64,000 nt of DNA from Apostichopus japonicus. Taxonomy: Eukaryota; Echinodermata; Holothuroidea; Aspidochirotida; Stichopodidae. Shown piece by piece: positions 5,257-44,600 of the stretch. The number at the start of each line of letters is the position of its first letter. Within the stretch, counting starts at the first letter, position 1. The notes under the pieces are model-generated. The model was not told the DNA's origin. It did no database searches and saw only the letters and a program-made list of their open reading frames with translations. The stretch covers positions 22,089,054 through 22,153,053 of the forward strand of contig NC_092562.1 in NCBI RefSeq assembly GCF_037975245.1. The letters are read 5' to 3'. A program made the translations under genes and the position numbers.

Positions 5257-8200
5257 CTACAAAGTAAAATGACGGCAAGTTTTACAAATTTGTCAATAAA
5301 TGTTAACTCTGTTAAGTCTAATTTAATTCTAGGAGAAGTGATGATGCTCCTGTTTGGCAGACTTGACAAAAAGAAAGTTTGAATAAGGATCACATAAAAC
5401 TTCAAGACAGTGTTGCTGTGATTGAATAGCATCAAACAGTTACATTGTGTCTTTTTCAAGTGATGTATCTAGTTAGTGATTAAAGATATGACTTAAATAT
5501 TTGTTGTAAGGGAAGTGACTCTTTCATATATAGGATTAAAGATATGACTTAAATGTTTGTGGTAAGTGATGTGCCAACTTCATGTCCAATTATGAGTTGA
5601 CGTTGTTCCTCATTATTGCTTCTAGAAAGTCCTAAGTAAAGGCAACACACTAGATGTTCATAGTGTGTGATGTGTCTCTGTTATATAGTACTAATACTGA
5701 AGTGACCTACATGCTCATAGTGTGTGATGTGTCTCTGTTACATAGTACTAATACTGAAGTGACTTACCAGTTCATAGTGTGTGATGTGTCTCTGTTATAT
5801 AGTACTAATACTGAAGTGACTTTTCATAGTGTGTGATGTGTCTCTGTTATATAGTACTAATACTGAAGTGGCTTACATGTTCATAGTGTGTGATGTGTCT
5901 CTGTTAAATAGTACTAATACTGAAGTGACTTACATGTTCATAGTGTGTTATGAAGTGGCTTACATGTTCATAGTGTGTGATGTGTCTCTGTTAAATAGTA
6001 CTAATACTGAAGCGACTTACATGTTCATAGTGTGTGATATGTCTCTGTTATATAGTACTATTACTAAAGTGATTTATATGTTCATAGTGTGTGATGTGTC
6101 TCTGTTATATAGTACTAATACTTAAGTGAGTTATATGTTCATAGTGTGTGATATGTCTCTGTTATATAGTACTATTACTGAAGTGACTTACATGTTCATA
6201 GTGTGTGATGTGTCTCTGTTATATAGTACTAACACTGAAGTGACTTATATTTTCATAGTGTGTGATGTGTCTCTGTTACATAGTACTAATACTGAAGTGA
6301 CTTACATTTTCATAGTGTGTGATGTGTCTCTGTTATATAGTACTAATACTTAAGTGAGTTATATGTTCATAGTGTGTGATATGTCTCTGTTATATAGTAC
6401 TATTACTGAGGTGACTTACATGTTCATAGTGTGTGATATGTCTCTGTTATATAGTACTAACACTGAAGTGACTTACATGTTCATAGTGTGTGATGTGTCT
6501 ATGTTATGTAGTACTAATACTAAAGTGACTTACATGTTCATAGTGTGTGATATGTCTCTGTTATATAGTACTATTACTGAGGTGACTTACATGTTCATAG
6601 TGTGTGATATGTCTCTGTTATATAGTACTAACACTGAAGTGACTTACATGTTCATAGTGTGTGATGTGTCTCTGGTATATAGTACTAATACTGAATCGAC
6701 TTACATGTTCATAGTGTGTGATGTGTCTCTGGTATATAGTACTAATACTGAAGTGACTTACATGTTCATAGTGTGTGATGTGTCTATGTTATATAGTACT
6801 AATACTAAAGTAACTTACATTTTCATAGTGTGTGATGTGTCTCTGTCATATAGTATAAATACTGAAGTGACTTACATGTTCATAGTGTGTAATGTGTCTC
6901 TGTTATTTAGTACTAATACTGAAGTGACTTACATTTTCATAGTATGTGATGTGTCTCTGTTATATAGTGCTAATACTGAAGTGACTTACATGTTCACAGT
7001 GTGTGATGTGTCTCTGTTATATAGTATAAATACTGAAGTGACTTACATGTTCATAGTGTGTGATGTGTCTATGTTATATAGTACTAATACTAAAGTAACT
7101 TACATGTTCATAGTGTGTGATGTGTCTCTGTCATATAGTACTAATACTGAAGTGACTTACATTTTCATAGTATGTGATGTGTCTCCCTGCCATTCCTATA
7201 AAGGCATCTTTTGTATCTTTCCTCTTGTTTCTGTGCCACCGATCCACATCTGCTTTAAGGTCTGCATTGGCACATTCTGTTTTGTCATTTAGAAATTCCA
7301 CCTGTGTCTGAAGCTGCAAGAGGTAAAACAAACATTACGTTACACCCTCAATGAGATCAAAATCAGCTTACTCTATGGATTCATTGAAATGGTAAATGTC
7401 TATTGATAGAAGCTAATGAAAATGATCATAATAATAATCATCTTAAAATAATAAAGAAACTATGAATTGCTCAATTTTAACAATGCATACCTTCAAAAAA
7501 AAGATGATAATGTTAGTTGAAACTTATGAAATTAAAGACACAATCTGATGTTTGTGTACCAATCTTAACATATACGTAACACACATAATCTAGATCCCAC
7601 ACGCATTATGGTCAGACACATTTATCTAGGTCAGAAACACATGTAAAGGTCATACACATATGGTCAGAAGGGAGGCTTGAAAACGGCATTGCAATGCTGC
7701 CCAAGCATAACAGTACTAGTTGAGACTGGAGCCAAAGTATGGGTACATCAATTCATTAAAGTTTTACTGCAGTCTCAAGCCTTCACACCAGTCTTTTTTC
7801 TTTCGGTGGGGTGGGGGAGGGGATGGGAAGGGGCAGGAACAATACAGGGCAGTCAACAAAGGGAGCTGTCATTATTTGCCATTGTCACAGTTTTCAGATA
7901 CTGATAACATATATTTGTTTACAAACCAAACATCCTCATTATGATAACACTGATGCTTATAATGAGCAACACTCCAAAACAGTTGAACAATCCTCAACCA
8001 AAAACACATGGTATCTTATTTTCCATACAATCAAGGGATAGTCCAGCAATATCATATCTATTGAGAAAAGGGACTTGCTTTAAACTTCCATTGCTGTGTA
8101 TATAAAGTTACATTATCACCTTAGTACATCCCTACGGCGGCTTAATAGGGACATAGGGGACAAAAATAAGTGTCCACAAATCTCAAAATTTTGACTTTTT

Positions 8201-16100: not shown

Positions 16101-19100
16101 GTTACCAGCGTTCCATGACACCCTATGACACCTGAAAACTGTATGGTCCTCCAGAAAAATGAAAACTCCTTTTGACGGACTAAAGATTGGAAAATCGCCA
16201 GTAAAATTTTAAACTGTGACAAATGAAGAAATATATATAAGTGATGTGATTAGAAAAGAGATCAGGTGAATGCAAAACAAAAAATGTAATGTATGAGATT
16301 ATGTTGTTTCCGGTATTTACGCTATATACAGGTAGCAATATATCGTTTCTGACAATATTTAAACATAACACAGACAGACATGACTATATATAGTCAGGAA
16401 GTTTTTAATGACTGTTTCCCTTTAATTTGATACAATTTGATTGCCTTTAACCCTTGTCAATAGAGTGAAATATCTTGTACATAGGGAAACAAATAAAGAG
16501 TTAGCAAAAAGTGTGGCTGATCTGCAGACCATGGAATTCATTTTAATCATGACAGGTTACAGACACCACAGTTGTCAAACTGAATCAAGACTGTCTGCAG
16601 TCAATACTGTTAAGGTAGTGTAGTATTCACAAAGTATTCCTAGCTTGCAACAACTTTAGCCAACAATACAGAATGTTGTCCAAACTGTATGACTGAATTG
16701 GATCAAAATTCAAAGACATTTCTTCAAACAATTTTGTAATCAATGATTTTGGTTAATTTAGTTAGTATAAGTTATCAACAATTTGATCCACTTTTTCACT
16801 CATACACTGCCAGGACAATTTTGTTCAATTAAATACCCATTTTTTAAATTATTTGTTATTATTTGTGTGAAATTAACAGTTGAACAACACTACACTATGA
16901 ATTTTGGTTGTAATATAAGAAAACAATACTTTGGATTCAATACAAAATGCTAACTTTAAATAAGACAACAACCCAAGAGGAAGACAAATAATAATTATGG
17001 TAATGAAGCATGTCACGCTACTGGACCTACTGTACTACTTCAGTTTCCCTCTTCAACTCTCCTAACAAGTTAAAAAAATAATTTGAAAATAATAAAACTG
17101 GACAGATTTGACTATTAAAAACAAAAATCTTTCGACAGTTGATTTCTTGATCTCAGGATCAAACTGATCATGATACTTTTTACTAAGAAAGTTTTTTTTT
17201 TTTATCATTGTCTGGCATTTTCATTTGTGCATAAAAAAACAACAACTTGCAACTAGTGACAAGTGCATATAAAACAGCAGTAAAATGTTGCAAAGCTTGA
17301 GTCAATAACAAAGCACTTAAAGCCTTCTAAAACTCTGCCACTGGCCAAGCTATCAGCCAAGTTATGATGAGAGCAACCTGTGCTACACAGAAAAGAAAAT
17401 ACTGACAATTCGATAACTTCATGTTTGATAATTCACAAAGAAACTGTTTGAGTGCCTCAAACCAATTATTCTATGAATGTAAATTTATCAGATTTGGTAT
17501 GTTTGTTTCAACAACCATTCAAAACTTGTGGTTGTAATATTAGTGTTGATAACTATTTCCAACTTTTTTCCTGATTTTTTATTCTCCCTCTCCCTCTCCC
17601 CCTCCCCCTTACTGGATAAGTCATCCAAACTAAGCGAGGAAGGACACAAGCTTTGTAACAATCACAAATTGCCCACCAAAAATAATGAAATGGATGGATG
17701 CAACATTGAACGGTTGCTCGGTTACATACTTGCGTGCATGCATGGAGAAGGACTGGTGCGTTTTAAGCAACAAACTTTCTCAAGGAAAAGATATGAATTA
17801 CCCATGCCTTTGCGGTCAAAAAAATCTTGAAATATTCATTGAAGGATAGAGTTGGGTGTTCTGATATGCGGGTCATAAACTTATTGAGAGCACGTTGTCT
17901 GGTCGTGAGGAACTCGGTGCCGAATCGATCAAGCTTCATACTGTGTTTCTCTGGCAAAGGCTGTGGGGTGAATACGTACATTAATTTAATTTTATAGTTC
18001 ATAAACGACCATTTCACAATAATATTTTGACACAAGACCAGCCAGAAAGAACTTGCAAACTGTAATCATTGCTACGGTTAGTACATAAATGTATAGATTA
18101 GCACAACCTCGTCGAAAAATCCATTTAACTCCGAAAGAATATCAATGGAATAACAACATCTTGAGAACATTTAAGGATGAGTGGGGGATACTTGGAAAAC
18201 TTGGCTGGAAGGAGAACGAGAGTCTCAAATGATAAGATAATACAGGGTATATTAAAAGATAGTGGTTGTTCCTCACAGTGCTGTGCCTTGTTCCATTGGC
18301 GCAATACAATACAACCAAATTTAATTGCAGTATGCGCAAGTGTAAGGCACAATCTGTAGTATTGCATAGCATCAAAACATCAATTGCTCCTCTCAGTATT
18401 TTGATTCAGGTAACTTTCAAAAGTAATACACCTGTGGTAACGAATGAAATCTTTAGAACGATCAAGTCATTTCAGACTATAACAGTGGGACTGCTTTCAG
18501 CTACTGACTGCATATTAAAGAAACTACGACAATAAAATATCAGGCTTTACTTTATTTAATGAAGGGTGAAACAAAAGGGACTTACTGGCACAAGGTGAGT
18601 TGGCTGAGTTTCTTCTAACTTCTGACGAAGCCAAAGAAAGTCTGTGTATCTTCTCCTGAGACTGTACTCTGGTTGGTCAAAGTCTCCTCGGGTAGTCTGT
18701 CGAATATGGAAAGATGGATTTCACTTCCTCGGATAACATCATATCAATCAAGACACAAACACAAAAGCTCTAATCTCTGGGCTGGGAATTACTTGAACAA
18801 CACTGGACTTCCACATGCATAACTCCCAACCTTACAACAACCTCAACATAATGTACCCTCAAACAAACTTCTCTGGAAATTTGTGAACCACTGCCCAAGA
18901 TGTATTTGACAACAACGACCATTTGAATGTTTCTACCAAATTCTGACCCGTTTATCATTAAACGCAGTCATTTTCAGATCATGTACGCAGTGATGATATG
19001 ACAGTCAAAAAGCCTCTTGTTGATACAGTCTGTGTGATGATCAACAGAAATGAATGCCAAAATATCCAGAAAGTGTCTAAATGTCCTTCGAAATGTACCC

Positions 19101-27430: not shown

Positions 27431-28932
27431 ACAAATTCTTATTAACCTCAAAATTTAAATCCAGTTAGTTCCTTACATATTGGATGTGGTAACAATGTGG
27501 TGGTGGGGGAGTATTAGGGGTTTCTAAAGTACCCCCTACTTAACCCTAACTGCAATGGGGTGGGGGTGGCATTATGACATTTTTTGCCACGTATTTTGAA
27601 CCGTTTGAGATGAGATTCTTTCATGACTTTTTCCCCACGTATTGATGCCACGTTATGAGGCAAAATTTATCCTTGGACTCCCTGTGTGCAGACATTTCAA
27701 TGATAAATTGGTTACGCCAGAAATAACATATACAGAAGTAAAGAGGAGAACAAACTTAGGTGTATATTTAATCAACTCCTCGAGAAATAAACCAAAGACG
27801 TTTCTATTCAATGTACTGAGCTCCAAGTTTTATATTTTCAAAGATAAAATCAGAGACCACTGAAAAGGTTTAATCAAGAGGGAGGGTGAAGGGGACGTAG
27901 GCTATATGTTTTGAGGGGCAGTGGGATATGCCTTTGACTCAGGAGGGGTCAAACTCCACAAAATAACCACCCGACAAAAATTAATCCTCTATGTCAAATT
28001 GTGCCACGCATCACAGAAGTAATATGTTTTTCAATTCAAAAGGCAAATTTTCAATTACAGTTTTCTTATTTTCTCAACAAAAGTTCGCATTTTAAATAAC
28101 AAAACCCGGCCATGCCCTTTTACTAACAATAATGGAAATGGATACTCTCAATGAAGTAACCGCGGATACTGCATGGAGCCTAATTTATCAAAACTGGTTT
28201 GGGGAACGTATACGTGCCTCAAGTTCCCGGGACTCCACCACTCCTGGATATCTATGGCATTCATACAACAAATGGCCGGAGACACCGAACCAACTATTAC
28301 CAATGCACCAGCTGCCTGGCATGCCCTTGGCAGTCAATGTAGAGAATTAAAAGATATACATAATACCACGTACAGTTCCATAGTCACAACTCTCAAATGG
28401 AAACGAAGATCAAAAGCTATGGGAAAATTTGTTCAGTGTCGGTAGATAATTGTCCTCGTTTTGATGTGATCAATACTTACAGAACTGTCCTGCCGCGTAT
28501 TGCTTATATCATACAATATATAAGTTAGATAAGCTATCCATATAACCAATTTATTGAGGAAGCGATAGGCCTGTACACAACACACACTCACGTGATGTCA
28601 TTTCGCAATACACAGACACACACAGTTTCAATACAAAACTGAGCACAGTATTATAAATAGGGAGGCTTACATAATATATACGGAACACTGTCGCGTAGGC
28701 CGATATAACGCTCTTCAGTTTTTTAGTTGTACTGTTGAACACAAACAAAAACGGGGAAACACGCCATACTGCTGTTGAAAGGAATATAGAGAGACAATGG
28801 TAAGGCAATAACGACGACTTAATTTTACAGGACAGAAGCAGTTGGATTTGATTTTTATCCCCGTTCAAGCCTACGAGGGTCCACTGATAAGTACACTAGA
28901 CAATAGCATACCGTAAGTGAAGCTTTTATCCG

Positions 28933-30027
28933 ATGGAATTTACTGTATTCGGAAATCTCAACTACCGTACGCTAAATCCAGGACAATGTCACCTTAGCAA
29001 TGATTTACAGCAGCCTGATACACATAAAATCACCAAGACATCTTTGGATTTGTTCCTACCACGAAAACTTGAGGTGAAGGAATTGAGTCCGGCCAACAAC
29101 CTCCAGGGTACTGAAGGGTTTCCTAATAAAGTGGAAGGATGTTCTGTGAAAACGCGAGCTACTTTTGTCCAAGATAATTCTATTCTTGTGATCTTCGTTC
29201 ACGGTGGTGGATGGAGGAGAGGTCACACGAGAAATTGGCAACATTTTCTGTCCAGGTTTGATACCAATTTGTTGGTATCTTTGTATTCAAAGTATTGTAA
29301 CCACTACCAAAACGTTGGTGAAAGTTTCGCGCGGAGTGGGTACGCATGCGCAGTTGTTACCTACCCTCTCGTTGCTCCACCAATCAGAGTAGTTTTTGTT
29401 GAGACGGTAACATCATTCTTAATGTCATGGATGTTATTTTTGATACCATTAAGTATGTTTTACCAATTGCTCAGTTTACTGTTTTATTTGACTGGAGTCA
29501 AAAGTGTCTTACTCCATGAAATGTGTACTTGGAATTTTCAAGTGTGTTCGTCCCTATTGATATCACAAACCTTCACCAAGTTTCTGATCTCTACAAATTG
29601 CGCCAACTACTTGACGTCAAGTACATCCGATGGGAGGCACAAACCTTTACTACCCAAGCTGCTGTCTTCGTTTATGTTAGCCTCAATCATAGGAGTTATC
29701 TTGTATTTAATTATCTTTGTTTGTACAATCCCTCAATTAAGTTTAGTAGTGTCCATTGACTTAATTTGCACACAGATCCTGATAACAGGGTTGCAAATAT
29801 GGAACTGGAGTAATGGGACAGACACAGCTAAAACAGTTACCGATCAGGTTAAGAGTGTAGCTTCGGCGATCCGTTGGCTACAGGATCTTGCTGAGTCGAA
29901 TCCTGGTTACTATGATCACAGACGCATTGCACTGTGTGGTCATTCTGCTGGTGGTACTATTGTTTCTCTTCTGGGATTGGAACCAAGATATCTGACGTCA
30001 GTTGGTGTGGATCGCTCACACATCAAG
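28933..30027 (+). CDS. Alpha/beta-hydrolase exon 1
   Basis: 365 codons from ATG to donor AAG/GTAGGA at 30027. Carries the oxyanion motif, both hydrophobic segments and the GHSAG elbow. The open frame runs 40 codons past the donor into the intron (across a C-run at 30063-30072) to a stop at 30150, so an unspliced transcript would lack the catalytic histidine. Confidence 0.85.
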
Positions 30028-31874
30028 GTAGGAGAACCTCCCTTTAAACTCCTTGAACTCAGCCCCCCCCCCCATGGTCTCAATACCATCCCCCTTTCAT
30101 TCCACCCCATCAAACTTCACATTCAGAAAATTCATTATATGTGGAGCTGAGGTAAACCTTACCCTATTCTATGCAAAAGAGAAGGCCTTGTTCTCTATCA
30201 TATCATTCCCTAAGCCCTTTAGGTGACCCAACTCAGGCCGGGGCTAATAACGGCCAGCTGTTACCCCGTCACTCCCCTTCAGGCTCTGGTCTGACCGGGT
30301 TTCATACCATTATTTAGCGAGAACAGCAGTAACCAGTCATGCAAATATGAATAGTTATTTTGTTCGTTGAAAGGTGACTAACATAAGTAATTCAAGGTTA
30401 ACAGCGTTGTCATGGTTTCAACCAGTACGTGACTTGTCAAATCAGTAACTTCATACTTGTTCATATAGAAACTTCTTTATCATGAGTTGTGTAAATATGC
30501 ACTGTTGAGTAGTGTAAATATTAATGTTGTGGTTTGTACGTTACCAGCTGCATTATAGATTCGAGCCCATTCACGTAAATACGCAGGTACGTGTAAACAT
30601 CAATGGGGTGCACAGGATTTCAAAAATGGGGCCAAGTTAAAAGAAAAAAATGCCGAATGATTGCCTAACTTTTGTGGTAGACCAGAGGCAAATAAAGGAT
30701 TTTATAGAGGGAGGGGACTATACTGGGATCATTAAAGTTGACTCATATCAAGGGGGGGGGGTCTGGAGGTCCTCCCCCAGAAAAAAGTATATAATGGTGC
30801 ATTCTAAGGCATAGTTAGATTTGACATCAGGTATATAGTACCGTACTGTAAGTAGCTCTAAACGCAACGTTTGCTAAAAAATATACTTTGTGTGATGCAA
30901 AACTGAGGCCAGGGAGATGATACACCCGTAGTAGTGGTCAAATTCTTCCCGGCTGAATACAACACCCCCCTCCTCCCCCCGATGGAATCATTTTCTCGCA
31001 ACTGACGGCGGTCGGAGGTGGGTGGAGTCATTACAGGCTAAGGAACTCTGTAGTGCAGAGGATTGTTTAGTTTGAGAACCCTTTCCCTTTCCACTCATTT
31101 CCTGCTTCTCCAATCTTCCCCTTGCCTCACATTCCTGGAGACCCATCCCTGGTACAGTATATTACCTTACACTTTATACAGATCAACCATACCCTATATA
31201 GCGCAAAGCTTCATTGTTAACATTGGGTGTCGACTCTCCATCGAGATCAAGATAGATGGAGTGGTTAGTTCGATAGGGGTAGGGTAGGGGGCGGGGGGGG
31301 GGGGTGCATTCTAATGAATTCAGTAAATGCATCTTGTAAAGCTTTGTCATCTTAGGACAGTAGGAGGAAGTGAGCGATGTTGTCGGGGTACTATAGCTAT
31401 AGACAGCGTGATACTCTACCACCTTTAGAACGTAAAATGACAAATATAAAGAAAGTCAGAGCGTATATGTTGAGTAACGTAATTTACCTCGTCTCTGTCC
31501 CACAGGGTGTCATCTCAATTTCTGGGGTCTGTGACGTTTCATCAATGGACAGGTCTCCTTCTACTCGGTTCTTTTACCTACTTCCGGTTTTCGGTGAAGA
31601 CTCTAACGAATGGAAGAGGATGTCACCTGTTCATAAAGTGAATAAAAACTCCAAATGGAAGAGTAAATTCTTACTCGTATCTTCAAGTTGGGAACCAATC
31701 ATTAGAAGCGATGCGGACGAGTTCGAGAAGAGGTTGTTATCAGCAGAATTCGATTGTATGAGATTAAAGCTGACGTCGAAAAACCATTACAGTATTTTAA
31801 ATGCATTTACCACAGGAACGAAATTAACTGTGTTAGAAATAGCTTGTAATAAATTTATAAGAGAATTGTCATAA
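28933..31874 (+). CDS. Alpha/beta-hydrolase (HGGGW / GHSAG), two exons, with hydrophobic insertion
   Basis: Exons 28933-30027 and 31506-31874 join in phase 0 (donor GTAGGA, acceptor CCCACAG), giving 487 residues. HGGGW at 90-94 is the oxyanion-hole motif and GHSAG at 336-340 the nucleophile elbow (Ser338). His459 in NHYSIL is the likely catalytic histidine, with Glu428 or Asp434 as the acid. This is the layout of the esterase/lipase alpha/beta-hydrolase families that include isoprenylcysteine methylesterase, arylformamidase and arylacetamide deacetylase. Between the first strands and the nucleophile lie two strongly hydrophobic stretches (about 153-195 and 243-293), suggesting a membrane-inserted protein; such an insertion is unusual. 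The start is the first ATG of the long frame; an upstream untranslated exon is possible. Substrate unknown. A likely polyadenylation signal AATAAA is at 32266-32271. Confidence 0.85.
31506..31874 (+). CDS. Alpha/beta-hydrolase exon 2
   Basis: 123 codons including the TAA. Begins GVISISGV, the strand that follows the nucleophile helix in this fold, then SPVHKV, FLLVSSSWEP and NHYSIL containing the presumed catalytic histidine. The acceptor CCCACAG is preceded by a pyrimidine-rich run. Confidence 0.87.
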   Translation, partial: GVISISGVCDVSSMDRSPSTRFFYLLPVFGEDSNEWKRMSPVHKVNKNSKWKSKFLLVSSSWEPIIRSDADEFEKRLLSAEFDCMRLKLTSKNHYSILNAFTTGTKLTVLEIACNKFIRELS

Positions 31875-32271: not shown

Positions 32272-32620
32272 TCTTAGTTCCTGTCTCCATGATTATCTCG
32301 TCTATAGTAGGCTGACTTAATACGTAAAATGCATCCACCTTTGGCTTTTACTTTGTATGCTGACCCCCACGTCAGCCTGTATCAGCTTAGTCAGATAATC
32401 GATGGTGGGGGGTGGGGGGGGTGGTGGGTGGGGAGTGGGTGGGGGAGTTGAGGGGTAAAGAAGCATAGAGAAATGACACATTATAAATATATAGTTATGT
32501 ATGAAAATCCGCGAGAAAGAAATAATAAACGAATTTTCAAAGTCTGAGTCAAAGTCTTTGGCAATACCGGATTTGTAATTAGTGATTTAATGAAAAATAA
32601 ACCCAAAACAGCCTACTGTA

Positions 32621-32785
32621 CAAATTGAGCTGTATGTACATAGCCAATGGTTGAGGACGGTCCCTATAGCTTCCACAAATAATTGAGCTGTATGTATATA
32701 GCCAATGGTTGAAGACGGTTCCTAGCTTCCACAAATTGAGCTGTTTGTATATAGCCAATGGTTGAGGACGGTCCCTAGCTCAATA
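32621..32785. repeat. Tandem repeat of 53-60 bp, three copies
   Basis: Units contain ATTGAGCTGTATGTA, TAGCCAATGGTTGA and GACGGT.CCTAGC; the last copy is truncated. Confidence 0.9.
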
Positions 32786-34056
32786 ATCTCTTGTTTTCTA
32801 GCAACCAGACAGAAGCCGCTCTACAATGATAGAAAAACTGAAATCGATTCCCTGCAGTCAGTAATCACTGGTTATATGATAATGTGGATACTGTACGGTA
32901 CAGGTACGTACCTCCTCCACCCCGAAATTAACGAAGGAAACGAAGTGTGAGACAATCCTCGTGTCTTATACCTAGTTACATTTTATACCGAGTGCAATAG
33001 AAACATTATTTTAGGTGGTAATCTCCTCAAAGCAACATGTTTAACAAAAGATATACCCGCTGGCGAGTTCCGTATATAGGCCCTAAATCTTTGTAGAGTA
33101 CAAGTAAGGCACGTTGCACTCTCCATGATGATCGAGCTTCTGTACCAAACAAACCCACTCGATCGAGGTTTTACAGTAAAATCAGTTCCACAGAAGAATT
33201 TGGAGATTCAACGAAAACCTATGGCGTAACGTGAAAATACATATCTGAACTTACGATTGCACACGGCTTCGAATGCAAAATTTAAATGATGCAATTACAG
33301 GAACTGCTCACTGGATATCAATAATTATGGTATTATCAGTAACCATAACCATAGACGTAAGAGCCCAATTTGATTAGGGGGGGGGGGGGGGGCTGTAACG
33401 ACTTGCCTGAAAAATATAACCAAAATTTTTCGCGGGCGTTCAACATGTTAATGTACATATATAGGCTGGCATCGGTAATTACATCGCATTCCAATAACAA
33501 TCATTATCCTTCCATATTGGTTACAATTAATGGGGAAGTTGTTACAATATTAATGATAATAATAATATCAGTTTAACCATTGAAAAACACATTGCAAATT
33601 ATTCCCCCCCCCCAACCCTCCACGTCAGTTGCAATCATGGTCTTCGATACCTTAAAGTCAACGTTCGTTGAAAAACTTGTACAACAAGATACCAACATCG
33701 CTATTTCTTTGTAAACAACCGCGGACATATAACCATATGTACTGATCGACCTGCTGACCAAGAAAATGATTTGCCAGTCTTTTTAGGTCATAAGAAATCA
33801 CGGTGGAACTCCTATTGCAGAACCCTGTCACAAAACCCGATGCACCATCACGTGAAACCCCTGGCGATTCTCCCCGAGCTTTATCGCCAATGAAGGTAAT
33901 TCCCTAATTGAAGTGCCTATAAGAGTGCTACAAATTTTAAAAAGTTCTTTCTGAAGTTTTCAGTGAAAGACAATTCAGTGCGCGAAAATAATTCGAGAGA
34001 GGAAGCAAAAACTGCTTGCTGGAAGTTTGAACGTGAAAGACTGATATTGGAGTTAA

Positions 34057-34325
34057 CTATCATTCCTCAGAGAAATAATGATCATTAAGAAATGGAGTTT
34101 CTAAAATTCCTCAGGGAAATGGTGACCCTTAAGCACCCGGAGTTTCTAACATACTTCAGGGAATTGATAACCTTTAGACACTGGAGTTTCTAACATGCTG
34201 CAGGGAAATGGTGACCCTTAAACACTGGAGTTTTTAACATACTTCAGGGAAATGGTGACCCTTAAGCACTGGAGTTTCTAACATACTTCAGGGAAATGAT
34301 GACCCTTAAGTACTAGCATGCTGGA
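34057..34325. repeat. 44-bp minisatellite, about six copies
   Basis: Unit built of GGAGTTTCTAACAT, ACTTCAGGGAAATGGTGACC and CTTAAGCACT; outer copies are more diverged than inner ones. Confidence 0.9.
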
Positions 34326-36469: not shown

Positions 36470-36740
36470 ACCTGTAGAGTACTTATTGTACATTCATATA
36501 GTACTTATTATGTATGCAGTTACTACGTATTCATAAAGTACTAATAATACGTTCATTGAGTACTTACTATGGATCTGTAGAGAACCTATTGTACATTCAT
36601 ATAGTACTCATTATGTATGCAGTTACTACATATTCATATAGTACTTATAATACGTTTATTGAGTACTTATTACCAATCTGTAGAGCACTTATTGTACATT
36701 CACAAAGTACTTATTATCCAGTAGCATAGTTCTTCGGAAC
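36470..36740. repeat. AGTACTTATT-type minisatellite with about 120-bp higher order
   Basis: Sub-units of about 20 bp (CATTCATATAGTACTTATT and variants) are arranged in a longer unit that recurs about 115-120 bp later (CTGTAGAG.A..TATTGTACATT). Confidence 0.85.
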
Positions 36741-41679: not shown

Positions 41680-44600
41680 CTGAAAGTGAGAATGTTAAAA
41701 TAATTCCATCATTTTCGATAAGAACTGAGAACATGCTTTTCAAATTGTTACTTAATGTCAAATGAGCTTTTAACAAGCATAAATTGTTCAAAGCATTTTA
41801 TTCTCAGTGACAATGAATATCTCATTCATGGACAGTGTGAGTGCAATGTCATGAGTATGAGAACAACATCACAAGTATGAGAACAACATCAAGAGTATTA
41901 GGACAACATCACACATATGGGAACAAGATCACAAGTATGAGAACATCAGAGATATGAGAACATAACTACTGTAGTATGAGAACAACATCACAGATATGAG
42001 AACAACATCACAGATATGAGAACAACATAACTAGTATGAGAACAATATCATGAGTATGAGAACAACATAACTAGTATGAGAACAATATCATGAGTATGAG
42101 AACAACATAACTAGTATGAGAACAATATGCTGAGTATGAGAACAACATGACTAGTATGAGAACAATATCATGAGTATGAGAACAACATAACTAGTATGAG
42201 AACAATATGCTGAGTATGAGAACAACATGACTAGTATGAGAACAATATCACAAGTATGAGAACAACATAACTAGTATGAGAACAATATTCTGAGTAAGAA
42301 AACATGTCAAAGTCCGTTGATACGATAACGAATCTGATTTAGACAATGTTTCCAACTAAGTCTGCTCTTTAATTAGATGATCAACTACACAAAAGTGCAC
42401 CGGTATATTGGCCATTCTGTCAACAGAGTGTCTGTCAAATCAAAACCAGCTCAATGTTGGACCGTGTGGTTGTGGTATGGACCTGGTTTGAGTTTGTGAG
42501 ATGAGGGTCCACTTGTGACTATATTTAATTTCCATTGTTTATAAAACTTACCGCATCATGAAGCATGTGTTGTCGCTGTTGTCGTAGGGTTCTCACGGTC
42601 TGGAAGACATCGACCACACCCTCTGCCCTGGCCCTCTCCATCAATATCGAAAGAGCAATCCAAACTGCTGTCCTTCCAACGCCAGTACTGATTAGAGGAG
42701 CAAATGAAAAGAAAGTGTAAACTAATGTCGTTACAACCAATTCCCCCCCCCCCCCCCCCCACCCCCTAACCTCTTTCCTTAATCCTCTCTTTGTCTTTCT
42801 GCAGTTTATCTCCTACCCTGTTGTTTTCTTTCTTCTCTCCATCCCTTGTCTACTAATCATCTTAGATCTTTCTCTTTTGTGTTCACCCTGCTCATTAACC
42901 TGTCTGTATTCTGTGTGTGTATATTTGTCCCTTCTGTTACTGTAACTTGTCATTCAGCCTCTGAAGAAGATCCTGCTAGGATCGAACATGTCAGGCCCTC
43001 TTACTTTTACACATAACTAACTTTTGGTAACAATTACACAGATAATAAAACTTGTTTGAGTGAAAGCGGTTAACTGAGGCCAATGTCAGCTAGGATTAAA
43101 TTTCAGTTAAAATGTAATACTTTATTGTCTTAGAAGAAGCTATAAACATGAACAGAGGCTGTAAAATTCAAACAGGTAGTAAAAGTTGCTAGTCAGCACA
43201 GAGTTCCTTGGCTTCAATGAACTAACTGGGGAGAGATTTTTATCCTGTGTTTGGTGTTTTGCTTCACCAGCAAAGACTGTTTTCATATTGAGGCACAGCA
43301 GCCACTTATTTTGTGGTGACAACTTTATCATCTGATCTAGAAACGGTAGGGTGATGGCAGTGGTGGTGGGGAGGGGGGTTTGGGTCAAAAATATTTCAAT
43401 AAAATACAACCTTTTTAACCAACAACATCACATATCCATTTCCAAATTGGCACACATATGTTAACACCACTGAAATAGTATTTTCAAACGAGTTACATTT
43501 CTTGATTTTGTATCAATATATTTTGGTACCAATGGTGCTCTGCACTCTTTATATCATTGTAAGGTTGAAGGAAAATGGGGAAGATATTTGGGCTTCTCGA
43601 GCAAAGGAAGAACCACACACATACAAGGACACCAGGTTTTATTACTAAGAAACCATTTACATGACCGGTTATTTACTCACTCCAGAAACAAACGGTGTTC
43701 CTGTTCATTCAATATCTCGTTTATATCAACTTCCAGCATTCCAGCTAGATCCAATATTAAGTGTTAAATTTCTTCCCTCTATGTTTAGTCAATTGCTATA
43801 TATTACAGCTCACATATTTATTTATTCTGTTTAACTTACTGGCAGAAGACAACGATTGGATGTCTAGAGTGATCAGGTGACTCTTCACGCTCCGAGTTCT
43901 GCTGATGTTCGTGAGCAACGTTCACTAAGTCGATCACAGATTCACAGCAGTTTGGAGTTCCCACTTCAGGCCAACCATGGAAGCGAAACATCGTTACCTT
44001 ACGTCCACTTACCCCCTATAGGACAAACAAAAATGGAAAACGCTAGAAATCCCACAAAATGCTAGTTTTGACCACCTCATTTGGTCTTGGATTCAAGCAA
44101 GTAACCTTCAAACATGACAAAGTCAATCTAGCCATCTTTCTGTTTAAACTTATATACTAGCAGCCTAAAATTAGAATTTCACTCATATTGTATTACTATC
44201 GGTTTCGGCCGGTATAAACCGGTGATACACATCCCACTGTTGACCGATAGCAATCCGATACCAATTGCAAATAAAGATAATAAAAAAAGACAAAGATGAA
44301 CATGGAATTGTGCTTGGATCGCATTGAAATGACACAGAATTGGGGATTGGTTTCTAAACCAGAATAGTATCGACCTTAACTTTGACAAAAAATCAGGCTT
44401 GTTTTGAAGAATCAATATTGGTTGCAAAACTAGCAGTAAATCCCGCATGCTGTTAATCGGTGCAACACTACTTAAAACTATTTCTTTAAACGAAATGTTC
44501 ACACTTTGAAATATATCACTGAGTCCCATTCACACTTGGAATCTTTGTTTCATAAATTATCTTAAATTATCATAAATTATAAAGCATTGGTGTGAACAGA

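Follow-up and report, generated by a model that had tools for sequence, protein, structure and literature searches.

A probably silent exon-end minisatellite in a putative SNX7/30-like gene of the sea cucumber Apostichopus japonicus

The SNX gene and its repeat array

The 64,000-nucleotide stretch of Apostichopus japonicus DNA analysed here (the window) carries a sorting nexin gene on its minus strand (Table 1). Two same-strand exons upstream of the exon that adjoins the array encode the two parts of a PX domain, in keeping with a sorting nexin. The narrower label SNX7/30-like is our assumption from vertebrate proteins. The reading frame of the penultimate coding exon carries on into the last one. 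These last two exons gave no significant match in Pfam or PDB searches. The C-terminal SNX protein was also compared with the whole genome (671,581,487 bases in 35 contigs). Among seven scored candidates there were two matches, both at this locus, and the search found no further place matching this protein.

The window has further features. A separate open frame of 409 residues lies on the plus strand at 28921-30150 and has an alpha/beta-hydrolase (BD-FAE) match near its end. Further minisatellites occur at 32620-32780 (unit 53 bp), 34048-34314 (44 bp), 36472-36717 (103 bp), and 41844-42304 (40 bp). No exon boundary was recognised in the 34048-34314 array, the sole one of the four that was read.

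Table 1. Features of the SNX locus (window positions) and database-recognised exons that end at the first donor of a survey array
Feature	Location	Strand	Evidence or remark
Exon with first part of PX domain, SNX7/30-like gene	18586-18696	-	PF00787, E 4e-6; acceptor and donor signals
Exon with second part of PX domain, SNX7/30-like gene	17811-17978	-	PF00787, E 1.9e-9
Penultimate coding exon, SNX7/30-like gene, 153 nt	7161-7313	-	Open frame between acceptor and donor; ends ...RHITYYEN in phase 0
First repeat unit: last 25 coding bases, donor, 26 intron bases	7129-7185	-	TGA in frame at 7133-7131
Authentic splice donor AAT/GTAAGT	7155-7160	-	Frame and signal boundary; U1 pairing -5.4 kcal/mol
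27 downstream copies of the 57-bp unit	5653-7128	-	
Perfect GTAAGT copies, first half	7103, 7046, 6989, 6932, 6875, 6818, 6761, 6704, 6647	-	
Perfect GTAAGT copies, second half	6590, 6533, 6476, 6419, 6305, 6191, 6020, 5933, 5767	-	
Decayed copies of the 57-bp unit without GTAAGT, old distal array edge	about 5466-5610	-	Gapped alignment to tandem consensus
Last coding exon, 57 residues, stop TAA	5083-5256	-	Frame and splice signals
L002, glycosyltransferase 21			Pfam 1.6e-10
L004, serine palmitoyltransferase 1			PDB 1.3e-5
L006, protein tyrosine phosphatase			Pfam 1.7e-10
L008, KRI1			Pfam 5.6e-28
L012, prostatic-type acid phosphatase			PDB 2.8e-6; match stops 22 residues short of donor
L014, alpha-2-macroglobulin TED domain			Pfam 1.5e-4, just below curated cut-off
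L063, YJU2/Saf4			Pfam 2.9e-13
L066, C8			Pfam 6.2e-12
L071, SPT16	G000 C3:3614500-3615800	-	Pfam 2e-23; confirmed against PDB

On the minus strand, the penultimate exon runs unbroken into a minisatellite that starts inside the exon, at 7185. The array has 28 units, with 26 spacings of 57 bp apart from one of 30 bp and one of 52 bp. Among the 27 downstream copies, one is accordingly shortened to 30 bp and one to 52 bp, and the final copy stops in a lost donor. An earlier sequence-only reading had described the units as copies of the last 25 coding bases with the donor and intron bases, continuous with the exon, and the copy relationship bears this out. Against the consensus of the 23 in-register downstream units, unit 1 matches at 23 of 25 positions in its exon part (7185-7161) and at 31 of 32 in its intron part. 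That reading named a failure of the unit exon parts to align to 7161-7185 as a refutation; they do align. Copy 6957 equals the exon at all 25 bases, and the best same-strand match to these bases outside the array reaches 17 of 25, at 5577 and 5521, both within the decayed copies. Copy relationship and register together support an origin of the array from the exon end, giving a run of near-identical donors. A DNA search places the array at one position in the genome.

The 23 in-register downstream copies show one to four differences from their consensus per 57 positions. Two bases that are absent from the exon are common to most copies; copy 6957 agrees with the exon at both, and copies 6843, 6330, and 6273 agree with it at one of the two. 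The two bases look as if one changed founder had spread. Identical units lie three or four units apart (6615 equals 6444, and 6387 equals 6159), which indicates that blocks of units were duplicated. The earlier limit of the array, 5653, proved too short, as diverged copies in the same register extend from about 5610 to 5466. They align with a score of 101, where 300 mononucleotide shuffles reached 75.5 at most, and TRF reports a 56-bp period in this region.

The donor is GTAAGT in 18 of the 27 downstream copies, GTAAGC in two, and GTAGGT in one, and the GT is lost in six. The earlier figure of about 27 decoy donors therefore holds for the number of downstream copies, but the usable donors number about 21. 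The array has two features of the tandem repeats known as mirages: a real exon/intron boundary lies within the tandem unit, as seen in unit 1, and the splice signal is retained in many, not all, copies.

Strength and fate of the copied donors

The usual copy pairs with U1 at -6.0 kcal/mol and copy 5767 (CTG/GTAAGT) at -9.1 kcal/mol, compared with -5.4 kcal/mol for the real donor. In total, 19 of the 21 GT-bearing copies equal or exceed the real donor, which is the weakest first donor among the 13 exon-end arrays compared below. Because most decoys are equal or slightly stronger by U1 pairing, position rather than strength must favour the first donor.

Selection for function in the decoys was considered and rejected. 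The donor columns (6 of 57) hold 9 of 61 mismatches against 6.4 expected, and in 42 of 52 six-column windows the number is no higher. The donor columns are thus no better conserved than the rest of the unit. The decoys show no sign of purposeful upkeep and none of purging. Lower divergence of the exon part was likewise discarded as evidence of function, since the variable columns number nine of 25 there and 14 of 26 in the intron part outside the donor (Fisher p 0.26).

Read-through past 7160 adds VSHFSISTI before the TGA at 7133-7131. Copies down to 5844 share one frame, since 57 and 30 are multiples of three. A stop had been claimed for every unit. Units 6786 and 6729 have none of their own, but this is harmless because the TGA of the first unit comes earlier and intercepts every extension. 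The claim that decoy use would remove the C-terminal 57 residues agrees with the coding content of the last exon (5256-5083). The distance from this stop to the last junction is 27 nt when decoy 7103 is used and 84, 141, and 198 nt for 7046, 6989, and 6932; by arithmetic it is larger still for the remaining decoys. Nonsense-mediated decay (NMD) follows a 50-55 nt rule, so distances of 84 nt or more make NMD the expected outcome for all decoys except 7103. A message spliced from 7103 may evade NMD and be translated into a protein that lacks the last 57 residues. Messages from the decoys beyond it are predicted to be NMD targets and not sources of stable truncated proteins, which counts against the truncated BAR isoforms of the earlier reading.

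Exon-end arrays elsewhere in the genome

Donor-motif arrays were sought genome-wide as three copies of GTAAGT (or AGGTAAGT, GTGAGT, or AGGTGAGT) at minisatellite spacing. The upstream edge was read in 31 of the 34 distinct arrays listed, all on C1 to C3 and taken as the first by position, not at random; those left out were C1:18259, C2:15833624, and the simple repeat C1:2246933. Of these 31, scanning covered the 23 in which an open frame longer than 20 residues lay close to the first donor. The other eight (L016-L019, L062, L064, L067, and L069) lacked such a frame and were left unscanned, and the sequence piece of L016 did not reach the array edge. Edge finding in this survey was rough, and the families at L006 and L066 were found with the second frame tried, after the array edge had been re-placed. 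Comparison with PDB sequences was given to donor arrays L004, L007, L012, L020, and L071, of which L007 and L020 gave no match.

In nine of the 31 arrays a coding exon ends at the first donor, seven recognised by Pfam and two by PDB comparison only (Table 1). The Pfam-only score is therefore 7/31, or 6/31 without L066, where the copy relationship is weakest and the next clear copy lies 237 bp away. Coding-looking exon ends were seen by eye, without a significant match, at L007, L010, and L020. L003 and L070 were not counted as exon-end arrays. L013, with a cortactin repeat match (1.1e-10), was also left uncounted, as no copy of the exon is visible in its repeat unit.

The exon share of the unit varies: none is measurable at L014, 4-8 bp are present at L004 and L006, and about 25-33 bp at L071, L008, and L002. 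Thirteen exon-end arrays were compared, comprising the nine recognised in databases, the three seen by eye, and the SNX array. In the sequence pieces read, 11 of the 13 include one or more downstream copies whose U1 pairing matches or exceeds that of the first donor; L004 and L014 are the exceptions. Use of the next copy would cross a stop in 11 of the 13, shift the frame in one (L004), and leave the frame open in one (L007). At L071 the SPT16 exon end and its donor are amplified as a 31-bp unit, so that successive copies fall in different frames.

Comparison with acceptor arrays

Arrays of acceptor motifs served as controls. The 25 chosen comprised 13 TTTCAG and 12 TTTGCAGG arrays; a dispersed TTTCAG satellite and dispersed TTTGCAGG families were for the most part left out. 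The pieces for L073 and L081 did not reach the array edge, and four of the 12 TTTGCAGG arrays lacked a 20-residue frame to scan. In none of the 25 does a Pfam-recognised exon start at the last acceptor. By eye, one does (L048). There, at 776-1051 (G000 C1:3940741-3941791, minus strand), a 59-bp unit consisting of an acceptor and 31 bases from the start of a likely exon is repeated upstream of that exon, which has no Pfam match.

Scanning 96 edge frames of 20 control arrays gave four families at E values up to 0.01. A FAM60A exon (3.2e-27; L036 452-668, minus strand) has its acceptor about 60 bp beyond the array's last TTTCAG. A UCH exon (0.0066, under the curated cut-off; L025 150-340, plus strand) has its acceptor some 30 bp past the edge of a TGAATG array, and other UCH exons of this UCH-like gene lie nearby. 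Thus two of the 20 control arrays end shortly before an exon, and in both the junction lies beyond the repeat. In the seven TGAATG arrays, no junction was recognised within the repeat.

By Pfam only, the donor and acceptor sets differ at 7/31 versus 0/25 (Fisher p 0.013), or at 6/31 without L066 (p 0.028). With the PDB matches, obtained for the donor set only, the donor count rises to 9/31 (p 0.003), and with the cases judged by eye the contrast is 12/31 versus 1/25 (p 0.003). All these contrasts are unclean: any one donor word probably accounts for more of the donors in total than any one acceptor word does of the acceptors, sampling followed position order, and the donor set was examined harder. 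Against random placement, at least nine of 31 has p 0.0009 if 9% is expected anywhere and p 0.07 if 17% is expected in introns only, both being our own rough estimates. Exon-end arrays recur in this genome, and an enrichment of arrays at donors is suggested only.

Genome-wide motif counts were also set against the reversed patterns: 5475+4306 versus 5901+5590 for GTAAGT, 320+52 versus 315+150 for AGGTAAGT, 4350+3737 versus 4176+3295 for GTGAGT, and 252+359 versus 161+122 for AGGTGAGT. Taken together, the forward and reversed counts do not show an enrichment of donor arrays. Reversed GTAAGT is itself the word of a (TGAA)n microsatellite, and the reversed counts were dropped as a control for donor arrays.

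Relation to known systems

The sequence-only reading had presented the array as a singular oddity. It is instead of a kind already known from lancelets and from the human CBS gene; its recurrence within this genome is new. As published accounts describe them, mirages are lancelet tandem repeats that extend over exon-intron boundaries, found in Adh3, the globins BflGb6 and BflGb9, troponin C, and PGBD5. Splice signals are reported in many copies, lengths vary, splicing seems undisturbed, and concerted evolution acts inside the arrays with the edges excluded. The SNX array resembles these amphioxus repeats as described, in that the unit contains an exon end or start with its splice site and many copies retain the AG or GT. 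It differs in belonging to a sea cucumber and a different gene and in its 27 copies of a 57-bp unit.

The human CBS 31-bp VNTR, c.1444_1467+7(16_21), is described as 24 coding and seven intron bases in 16-21 copies with polymorphic alleles, and the title of one report links it to reduced activity (Lievers, 2001). Each of its units, like those of the SNX array, holds the last exon bases and the donor. According to these accounts, the CBS unit is shorter than the SNX unit and has hardly any intron part. Polymorphic alleles and an activity association are published for CBS, with nothing comparable for the SNX array. Intron gain through internal tandem duplication, as outlined in earlier work (Rogers, 1989; Gao and Lynch, 2009) and in a human ITR study (PMC2812944), shares with the SNX array a duplication across a splice site. 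Unlike those cases, the SNX array leaves the intron where it was, with no new intron demonstrated. The literature search returned exon-boundary repeats only from lancelets and human genes, with no echinoderm case. The present array extends the phenomenon to an echinoderm, and the survey adds a new hint that exon-end minisatellites are widespread in this sea-cucumber genome.

Origin and splicing of the array

From the observed anatomy, copy relationships, and single genomic place of the array, we infer its history and its splicing. It is quite probably a tolerated minisatellite that grew from the exon end, with near-neutral decoys and the first donor in use. A tandem duplication of the stretch straddling the exon/intron boundary of the SNX penultimate exon would have given birth to the minisatellite. 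Multi-unit duplication and unequal exchange would then have brought it to 27 recognisable copies while the far edge decayed. Under exon definition, that is, recognition across the exon, donor 7160, the nearest to the exon's own acceptor, would be paired with it and used, and the whole array would be removed within the 1.9-kb intron. Occasional use of a decoy would extend the exon past the TGA at 7133, yielding a shortened protein from 7103 and mRNAs degraded by NMD from the others. The decoys would thus be near-neutral, and the array would be one of a recurring class in this genome. Between the two options offered by the sequence-only reading, a favoured first donor is the better supported, and copy-number-dependent truncated BAR isoforms are the less supported.

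Measurements behind the exon-definition rule come from other animals, and the rule would have to carry over to the sea cucumber. In the published comparison, the upstream 5' splice site was preferred when strengths were near equal and the exon lay between long introns, and the stronger site was dominant in 86% of events. The weak real donor, the stronger copies, and this 86% rule make some decoy use plausible, which speaks against exclusive reliance on the first donor. The other exon-end arrays bear on the same point. SPT16, YJU2, and KRI1, which we take to be essential genes, carry such arrays, so their first donor must be used mostly. These genes could hardly tolerate frequent use of the copies.

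Were decoy use frequent at the SNX locus, the array might act as a copy-number-dependent splicing rheostat, with decoys capturing U1 snRNP, diverting transcripts to NMD, and lowering SNX output. There are many decoys, they lie close by and slightly exceed the real donor in strength, the NMD geometry of the stops fits, and the human CBS VNTR, which is claimed in published work to act in this way, shares the anatomy. This reading is nevertheless unlikely, as the decoy donors show no extra conservation, six copies have lost the GT, and the same structure sits in genes presumed to be essential. The copies might also be spliced in as in-frame micro-exons that each add eight residues. New exons have been proposed to arise in this way from lancelet mirages, for which an intron-gain model has been published. 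In most units an AG precedes the exon copy (...AACAG/AGACACATCACACACTATGAACAT/GTAAGT), which would give 24 nt encoding RHITHYEH in frame. No clear pyrimidine tract accompanies this AG, whose surroundings are A/T-rich and contain purines, and just 33 nt of intron part separate neighbours. The usual minimum for an animal intron is larger than 33 nt, and we regard micro-exon use as very unlikely.

A collapsed or expanded assembly is scarcely credible as a source of the array. Tandem arrays are a usual site of assembly error, and one lancelet mirage is reported to have seemed mis-assembled in a draft. An A. japonicus assembly of matching size is described as based on PacBio HiFi reads (671.60 Mb in 34 scaffolds, with 23 chromosomes of 18.21 to 46.02 Mb), which makes an artefact of 1.5 kb unlikely. 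The ordered variants among units, the decayed edge, and the presence of the same class at other loci also argue against it. The SNX array is real, well formed, and probably a silent mirage.

A wider proposal would have exon-end minisatellites arise genome-wide and be seeded more often at donors than at acceptors, as extra donors behind the first would be near-invisible to an exon-defining spliceosome and extra acceptors would not. SNX-like arrays, with copies stronger than the real donor, would then leak according to copy number and tune output. This proposal is tentative and, on balance, rather improbable.

The array offers a natural test of splice-site choice, with one acceptor, one real donor, and about 20 near-identical, slightly stronger donors behind it. 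Junction counts along this mostly evenly spaced array would directly measure the effect of position in a normal gene. Recurrence in up to nine other database-recognised genes, some of them presumed to be essential, would provide a series of differing unit lengths, strengths, and copy numbers. Separately, the array L007 (G000 C2:13555040-13556500, minus strand) has a 33-bp unit of about 27 exon bases plus GTAAGT. Read-through meets no stop in the piece read, and each later donor would add 11 residues, which makes this array a candidate for variable protein length.
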